DNA from: Pseudobdellovibrionaceae bacterium
GTDB lineage: Bacteria > Bdellovibrionota > Bdellovibrionia > Bdellovibrionales > UBA1609
NCBI GenBank assembly: GCA_018663505.1
Contig: JABJQG010000013.1
Location: 62,001-126,000 of the forward strand
Reading direction: 5' to 3'
Length of the DNA: 64,000 nt
Shown: in pieces, positions 24,186 through 51,501 of the stretch
Layout: each line of letters opens with the position of its first letter
Numbering within the stretch: position 1 is the first letter of the stretch
The notes under the pieces: generated by a model
What the model was told of the DNA's origin: nothing
What the model saw: only the letters and a program-made list of their open reading frames with translations
Databases searched by the model: none
Program-made: the position numbers and the translations under genes

Positions 24186-24582
24186 GCGGCCATGTAAAAT
24201 GCCAAGGTCATTAAACTCACCTCAATTGAGACCATGTGGGTATGTGCACAAAAATACTCAAACAAGCAGTGCTCATTAAAAATTCAGCAATGACTCCCAT
24301 ATTCCCATTTTTTAGCAGCCGCGCGCAAAGCGAGTTAGGATCGCAGCCCGAAGGGCGAGAACCGCATGTTTGAGCCTTTGAGTGTGGCTGCTAAAAAATG
24401 GGAATATGGGAGTCATTGCTGAATTTTGAACTCCGCTCCGAATTCACTGTTAGCCCACAGACCCACATGATCTCAATTGAGGTGAGTTTAATGACATTGG
24501 CATAAGACAAAACGTGACCTCGGTGGCGGTCTGTGCTAATTATTCTTCAAAATATATATGAATTTACATAAAGGAGATTTCA
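24186..24582. other. tatD-gap intergenic region (397 bases)
   Basis: No gene is supported. The first three quarters are the nested palindromic element 1 (24199-24503). The last 79 bases should hold the promoter of gap; AAGGAG at 24571-24576 is its ribosome site. Confidence 0.7.
24199..24503. repeat. Nested palindromic element, copy 1
   Basis: Outer arms 24199-24241 and 24461-24503 are inverted repeats (41 of 43 bases). Inner arms 24279-24320 and 24386-24427 are perfect inverted repeats (42 of 42). The spacer between the inner arms, 24321-24385, is 65 bases and differs at only two positions from the spacer of copy 2 (26993-27057). The outer arms have no resemblance to those of copy 2, and the inner arms share only their ends (AAAATT-AGCAAT and TTTAGCAGCC). 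The spacer includes a GCCCGAAGGGC hairpin. No transposase is encoded. Confidence 0.88.
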
Positions 24583-26823: not shown

Positions 26824-27239
26824 GCTCGATTTTATATTTCAAATTTGTTTTATTTAAAACTATAATTATTTTTTATGTAACTTTATTATTTAGAAAAATT
26901 TTGAGCTCAATGAATCACACTCAAAGGCTCAAACATGCGGTGCTCATTAAAAATTAAGCAATCTCATTCCTTTTTTGTTTTCTTTAGCAGCCGCTCGCAA
27001 AGCGAGTTCGGATCGCAGCCCGAAGGGCGAGAACCGCATGTTTGAGCCTTTGAGTGTGGCTGCTAAAGAAAACAAAAAAGGAATGAGATTGCTTAATTTT
27101 GAACTCCGCTCCGAACTCGCTTTGCGCGCGATTCATTGAGCTCAAAATTTTTCTAAATAATAAAGTTACATAAAAAATAATTATAGTTTTAAATAAAATA
27201 AATTTGAAAAATAAAATGAACAATGTACGGGGAGTGACT
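26824..27239. other. pgk-tpiA intergenic region (416 bases)
   Basis: No gene is supported. Almost the whole region is nested palindromic element 2 (26829-27217). The last 22 bases contain GGGGAG at 27229-27234, the ribosome site of tpiA. Confidence 0.7.
26829..27217. repeat. Nested palindromic element, copy 2
   Basis: Outer arms 26829-26916 and 27130-27217 are inverted repeats (86 of 88 bases). Inner arms 26950-26992 and 27058-27100 are perfect inverted repeats (43 of 43). The 65-base spacer 26993-27057 is 63 of 65 identical to copy 1. The junction pieces are also related to the spacer: 26918-26940 is the reverse complement of the second half of the spacer (tgtttgagcc...), and 27104-27129 is close to the reverse complement of its first half (gcaaagcgagtt). 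It fills the pgk-tpiA gap within a glycolytic gene set. Confidence 0.9.
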
Positions 27240-51420: not shown

Positions 51421-51501
51421 ATAACTTTAAAATTTTTCTTTTTTTCGTTCTATTTTTAGAGAGCTAAAATAGAACGAAAAAAAGAAAAATTTTAAAGTTA
51501 T
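51421..51501. repeat. Perfect inverted repeat with 36-base arms
   Basis: Arms 51421-51456 and 51466-51501 are exact inverted repeats around a nine-base loop (51457-51465). The sequence is A/T-rich (tttttctttttttcgttc type). It sits between the unknown nitrate-island gene and moeA. It is far longer and more perfect than a normal terminator and has no following T run. Confidence 0.9.

Follow-up and report, generated by a model that had tools for sequence, protein, structure and literature searches.

The palindromic elements of Rickettsia are able to sit in frame within protein genes. Bacterial MITEs are short, non-coding, dispersed multicopy sequences with inverted repeats that are mostly intergenic (PMC10969869), and the REP and BIME sequences that occur with RAYT are intergenic palindromes 3' of genes, 20-40 bp long, with common stems, a GTAG or CGTC tag, frequent G.T pairs and subfamilies that carry alternative complementary stem bases (PMC3733652). 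Template switching in quasipalindromes leads to symmetric changes, perfect stems and spacer inversion (PMC8794818, PMC8604942, PMC7202029); it has been found to create and maintain hairpins (PMC8794818), to homogenise arms and to invert spacers (PMC8604942). Hairpin-primed fill-in is favoured in cells without the Mre11-Rad50 or SbcCD nuclease, where large inverted duplications result (PMC10622511, PMC3315005); foldback inversions are typical in yeast lacking Mre11 nuclease (PMC10622511), and SbcCD guards E. coli from palindrome-driven rearrangement (PMC3315005).

The palindromes analysed here resemble each of these systems in part and, judging from their sequences, are best filed as dispersed palindromic (MITE/REP-like) repeats whose arms would be rewritten by fold-back copying. 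They are multicopy, non-coding and dispersed (44 matches in the source genome), short and mostly intergenic, and have inverted repeats, as MITEs do. Unlike MITEs, however, copies in the source genome have no element ends in common, each copy having arms of its own, and conserved terminal inverted repeats were found only in one form, in the relative G044 (TTATACCGATCCGGTTTGA...). With REPs and BIMEs they share the location 3' of genes and the subfamilies with alternative complementary stem bases, but their arms are 40-70 bp long (39-72 bp in the measured copies of the source genome and up to 133 bp in G018), unique and almost free of G.T pairs, and no GTAG or CGTC tag was seen. As in Rickettsia, insertion in frame into a protein gene occurs, in a single clear case (copy L045, in hypF), whereas copies here have no ends in common, the lineage is a different one and the sequence is probably different too. 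Descriptions of template switching in quasipalindromes concern single hairpins and short repeats and do not include a dispersed family of elements that is pervasively rewritten, and the large inverted duplications of Mre11- or SbcCD-deficient cells contrast with the short arm rewriting proposed below.

The window, that is, the whole 64-kb stretch of DNA analysed, is part of a 3.78-Mb genome in 72 contigs and contains two nested palindromes, one in the spacer between tatD and gap (copy 1, 24202-24500) and one in the spacer between pgk and tpiA (copy 2, 26829-27217; Table 1). The predicted fold of the 389 nt of copy 2 has an energy of -209.6 kcal/mol, compared to a mean of -72.8 for shuffled sequences (z = -28). 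In the original prediction, copy 2 was read as an element inserted into itself, the pieces next to the inner arms being reverse complements of the two ends of the core. Both junctions were borne out: the left piece (26918-26940) pairs with the end of the core over 30 nt at 97% (26916-26945/27029-27058), and the right piece (27104-27129) pairs with its start over 27 nt at 89% (26992-27018/27104-27130). Copy 1, as had also been noticed, has the same plan with the piece between X and Y eroded. Un-nested copies, the lack of which was said to favour one fixed structured unit, do exist elsewhere in the genome, where the inner unit is recovered about 44 times by a covariance model. Elsewhere in the window lies an 81-bp intergenic palindrome (51421-51501; 36-bp arms and a 9-nt loop) without the element centre.

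Table 1. Features of the two nested palindromes, in positions of the window.
Feature	Position	Strand	Basis
Outer arm X, copy 2, locus-unique	26829..26915	+	98-nt inverted pair (26829-26926/27120-27217, 95%)
3' half of outer (subtype-2) centre, GAGCACCGCATGTTTGAGCCTTTGAGTGTG on minus strand	26916..26945	-	30-nt inverted pair
Inner arm Y, copy 2, locus-unique except ends	26946..26990	+	56-nt inverted pair (26947-27002/27048-27103, 93%)
Inner centre, copy 2, 69 bp, subtype 1, conserved structured unit of ~44 genome copies	26991..27059	+	
Inner arm Y', copy 2, reverse complement of Y	27060..27103	+	56-nt inverted pair
5' half of outer (subtype-2) centre, GCGAGTTCGGAGCGGAG on minus strand	27104..27130	-	27-nt inverted pair
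Outer arm X', copy 2, reverse complement of X	27131..27217	+	98-nt inverted pair
Outer arm X, copy 1	24202..24240	+	sequence
Inner centre, copy 1 (inner arms ~24275-24318 and ~24388-24431)	24319..24387	+	
Outer arm X', copy 1	24462..24500	+	sequence

As its outer unit, the nested palindrome has a centre of subtype 2, exactly as found at loci L029, L030, L033 and L035, from which only the 8-nt apical loop (CCGAAGGC) is missing, and in place of this loop stands a complete subtype-1 element, arms and centre included. Since the junctions are identical in the three clear nested copies (at 24.3 and 27.0 kb of the window and at L043), the nesting most likely occurred once among them and then spread; L044 looks like a further nested case that is eroded. 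The reading as a self-nested insertion can thus be kept, given the un-nested forms, whereas the suggestion that the same rule had been followed twice cannot, given the common junctions; what that reading overlooked is that the arms differ from copy to copy around a common centre. The inner unit of the window copies is oriented opposite to that of L043, a spacer inversion of the kind described for quasipalindromes, and appears to have flipped after the nesting, in one lineage. A nested copy would be born when one element entered a second at its apical loop, after which the inner unit could flip via template switching or inversion between its own arms.

In the source genome, we measured 39 fetched copies; one more fetched copy, L032, is an incomplete (truncated) element. 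Each measured copy consists of a centre of ~69 bp (e.g., TTAGCGCCAAAAGCGAGTTCGGATCGCAGCCCGAAGGGCGAGAACCGCATGTCTGAGCCTTTTGGTGTTAA), which falls into one of three subtypes, flanked by long inverted arms (median 54 bp, range 39-72). No convincing open reading frame was identified in the element, and a known RNA family was rejected as its identity, no Rfam family matching above the gathering cut-off; a phage or plasmid origin was likewise rejected, none being found. When the concatenated arms of 33 measured copies were searched against the source genome, each arm matched exactly twice, both times beside its own centre, and the few leftover matches were all weak, with E values from ~0.5 upward, and lay at unrelated positions. 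Capture of arms from elsewhere in the genome was rejected, as no third arm copy was found. Where two copies have the same 69-bp centre, their arms are only 33-64% identical. A weak consensus nevertheless connects many of the arms and seems to extend to another genus (G062), and L020 and L035 have arm sequence in common around centres of different subtypes, which suggests that the arms are old and homologous, yet far more diverged than the centre. No pair of copies in the source genome has near-identical arms, which is unexpected if elements still jump with their arms.

Within a copy, the two arms match at 98.8% (39 copies, source genome), and the mismatches are unevenly distributed along the stem. 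Within 12 bp of the centre, 108 of 468 pairs were mismatched, compared to 21 of 1,726 beyond (p = 1 × 10−55); all 39 copies had a mismatch at stem position 7 and 32 of them had one at position 9, and the contrast persisted without these inherited positions (p = 1 × 10−14). In 11 pooled genomes of other genera, whose mismatches are different from those of the source genome, the rate fell from 7.5% at positions 6-11 to 1.0% at positions 12-17 (p = 5 × 10−7) and then rose to 1.3, 1.8, 3.1 and 5.5% going outward, the last value at positions 36-41. The profile is thus one of a high mismatch rate within 12 bp, a sharp fall at 12 bp and a slow outward rise. The drop was strongest in G007, G044 and G062, and two single relatives showed no contrast between inner and outer positions (4.2% vs. 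4.5% in G063, and 1.7% vs. 1.2% in G018); orthologous copies were not recognised between genera. A sharp drop at one helical turn followed by a slow decay points to a footprint of fold-back priming, with the inner turn acting as the primer. Alternatively, the centre and the adjoining 12 bp could together form a functional footprint with selected mismatches.

Genome G044 contains a 225-bp form of the element (loci L134-L153), bounded by the terminal inverted repeats given above and possibly mobilised by a transposase inserting at TA. Because this form has a clear family consensus, and because 117 of its arm pairs had changed on both sides vs. 13 broken pairs, its arms appear to have been inherited and then altered symmetrically. 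Symmetric arm changes with rare intermediates are those described for quasipalindromes.

At two sites, the extent of an insertion can be assessed. Copy L045 lies in frame inside hypF, with the reading frame open across 849 amino acids, and hypF of relatives is without this insert. At this point, the encoded protein has 55-56 residues (165-168 nt) more than the solved HypF structures 3vth and 4g9i, and the arms and centre of L045 together measure 163 bp; both arms at hypF are therefore inserted DNA and not host flank. A target-duplication model, with one arm as the native flank, was rejected, the surplus in hypF being equal to the whole element with both arms. No target-site duplication of the kind made by MITEs was seen at arm ends. 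The second site is in G063, where a copy lies between lspA and lgt; in three congeners (G019, G046 and G062) this spacer is a few tens of bp long and without the element, although, at 66-81% nucleotide identity to G063, the spacers could be aligned only to show one element-free site. Tandem partial copies adjoin an intact palindrome at L174 and L180 of G063 and at L156, L159 and L160 of G060. Also in G063, the element copies L175 and L183 are flanked by further long palindromes, whose centres are GC-rich and unlike that of the element, and more than one such palindrome family may therefore exist.

The same centre is present in sea-water metagenome assemblies of Bdellovibrionales (ALOHA, L4) and in one other assembly of this order, HKST-UBA06, and several assemblies that carry it belong to the family of the source genome. 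Using the covariance model built here, we identified elements in 20 of the 47 genomes of this family, often 10-40 per genome; in the inspected genera, the apical stem varies but the internal loop retains the motif CGAGTTC ... TGTYTGAG. Elsewhere in the order, other families gave single weak matches, which may be unrelated hairpins. SbcCD is a nuclease that destroys hairpins and palindromes. SbcD was undetected in all 47 family genomes, by a search that was positive in 12 of 14 control genomes. Among 141 genomes of the order, SbcD and SbcC were found only in one family, f10 (11 genomes), none of which carried the element, compared to 43 of the 130 others (Fisher p = 0.019, uncorrected). As one family provides a single phylogenetic contrast, which is confounded, the link between absence of SbcCD and presence of the element is suggestive only.

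Taken together, these findings favour, with a probability of about 0.62, a MITE/REP-like family of non-coding palindromes, belonging to a marine family of Bdellovibrionales, whose arms are inserted with the element and kept identical by fold-back template switching, loss of SbcCD being permissive; the arm-to-arm copying step is one that we infer from its footprints and not from an event seen between parent and descendant. The conserved, structured centre caps a long stem, and a 3' end extending past it would fold back, anneal via the ~12 bp of stem nearest to the centre, and copy the opposite arm outward over a limited distance. A mutation in either arm would thereby be rewritten into the other, so that, under repeated rewriting, arms could drift to unrelated sequence while the hairpin stayed perfect. 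Constancy of the centre could come from function or from exchange between copies, and long palindromes would be tolerable in cells without the SbcCD hairpin nuclease. A doubtful variant is that mobile hairpins inherit the centre only, their arms being rewritten by hairpin-primed copying at or soon after insertion, so that each copy would have a one-off pair of arms, and that they can persist only in lineages without SbcCD.

Purifying selection on an RNA hairpin would have ordinary compensatory mutation preserve a transcribed stem, with the centre acting as an RNA motif or a protein-binding motif. Covariation within the centre helices and the recurrence of CGAGTTC / TGTYTGAG across genera of the family are consistent with this, as are the location of elements mainly in spacers, frequently 10-60 bp past a stop codon, and a weak bias in their orientation relative to genes in the source genome (18:7, p = 0.04). 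That bias, however, was not significant in relatives (p = 0.18), one copy lies within hypF, and beyond 12 bp only 7 of 1,687 stem pairs were G.T, with all four Watson-Crick types in use. The near-absence of G.T argues against RNA selection, which tolerates and passes through G.U, and makes this explanation improbable. Still less probable is that the ~69-bp centre alone is mobile and that arms are made anew at each insertion, adjoining DNA being copied in inverted orientation. Arms that are unique to each locus, and unrelated even around identical centres (L036 and L037 are alike at 9/27), would follow from such a process, as would the sharp boundary at 12 bp and the few copies whose arm ends overlap gene ends, but both arms at hypF are extra DNA, the element-free lspA-lgt spacer of the congeners is too short to have supplied a native arm, the arms in G044 appear inherited, and the weak, old arm consensus apparently includes another genus.

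We give the lowest probability to an ordinary old MITE family, in which arms are neutral, the centre is homogenised by gene conversion and arms are occasionally converted by each other. Homologous arms on different centre subtypes (L020 and L035) and the MITE-like 225-bp form agree with it; it would, however, require frequent conversion over merely 69 bp, and by itself does not predict a mismatch minimum at 12-17 bp.

If fold-back rewriting of the arms is true, these elements would amount to a record, kept by nature across whole genomes, of template switching by fold-back; several genera would each offer dozens of such loci in a genome, the mismatch profile would reveal both how long the primer is (~12 bp) and how copying decays, and the persistence of palindromes would be tied to the loss of SbcCD. 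Perfect compensatory covariation of a stem could then be a footprint of DNA copying and not proof of a functional RNA.
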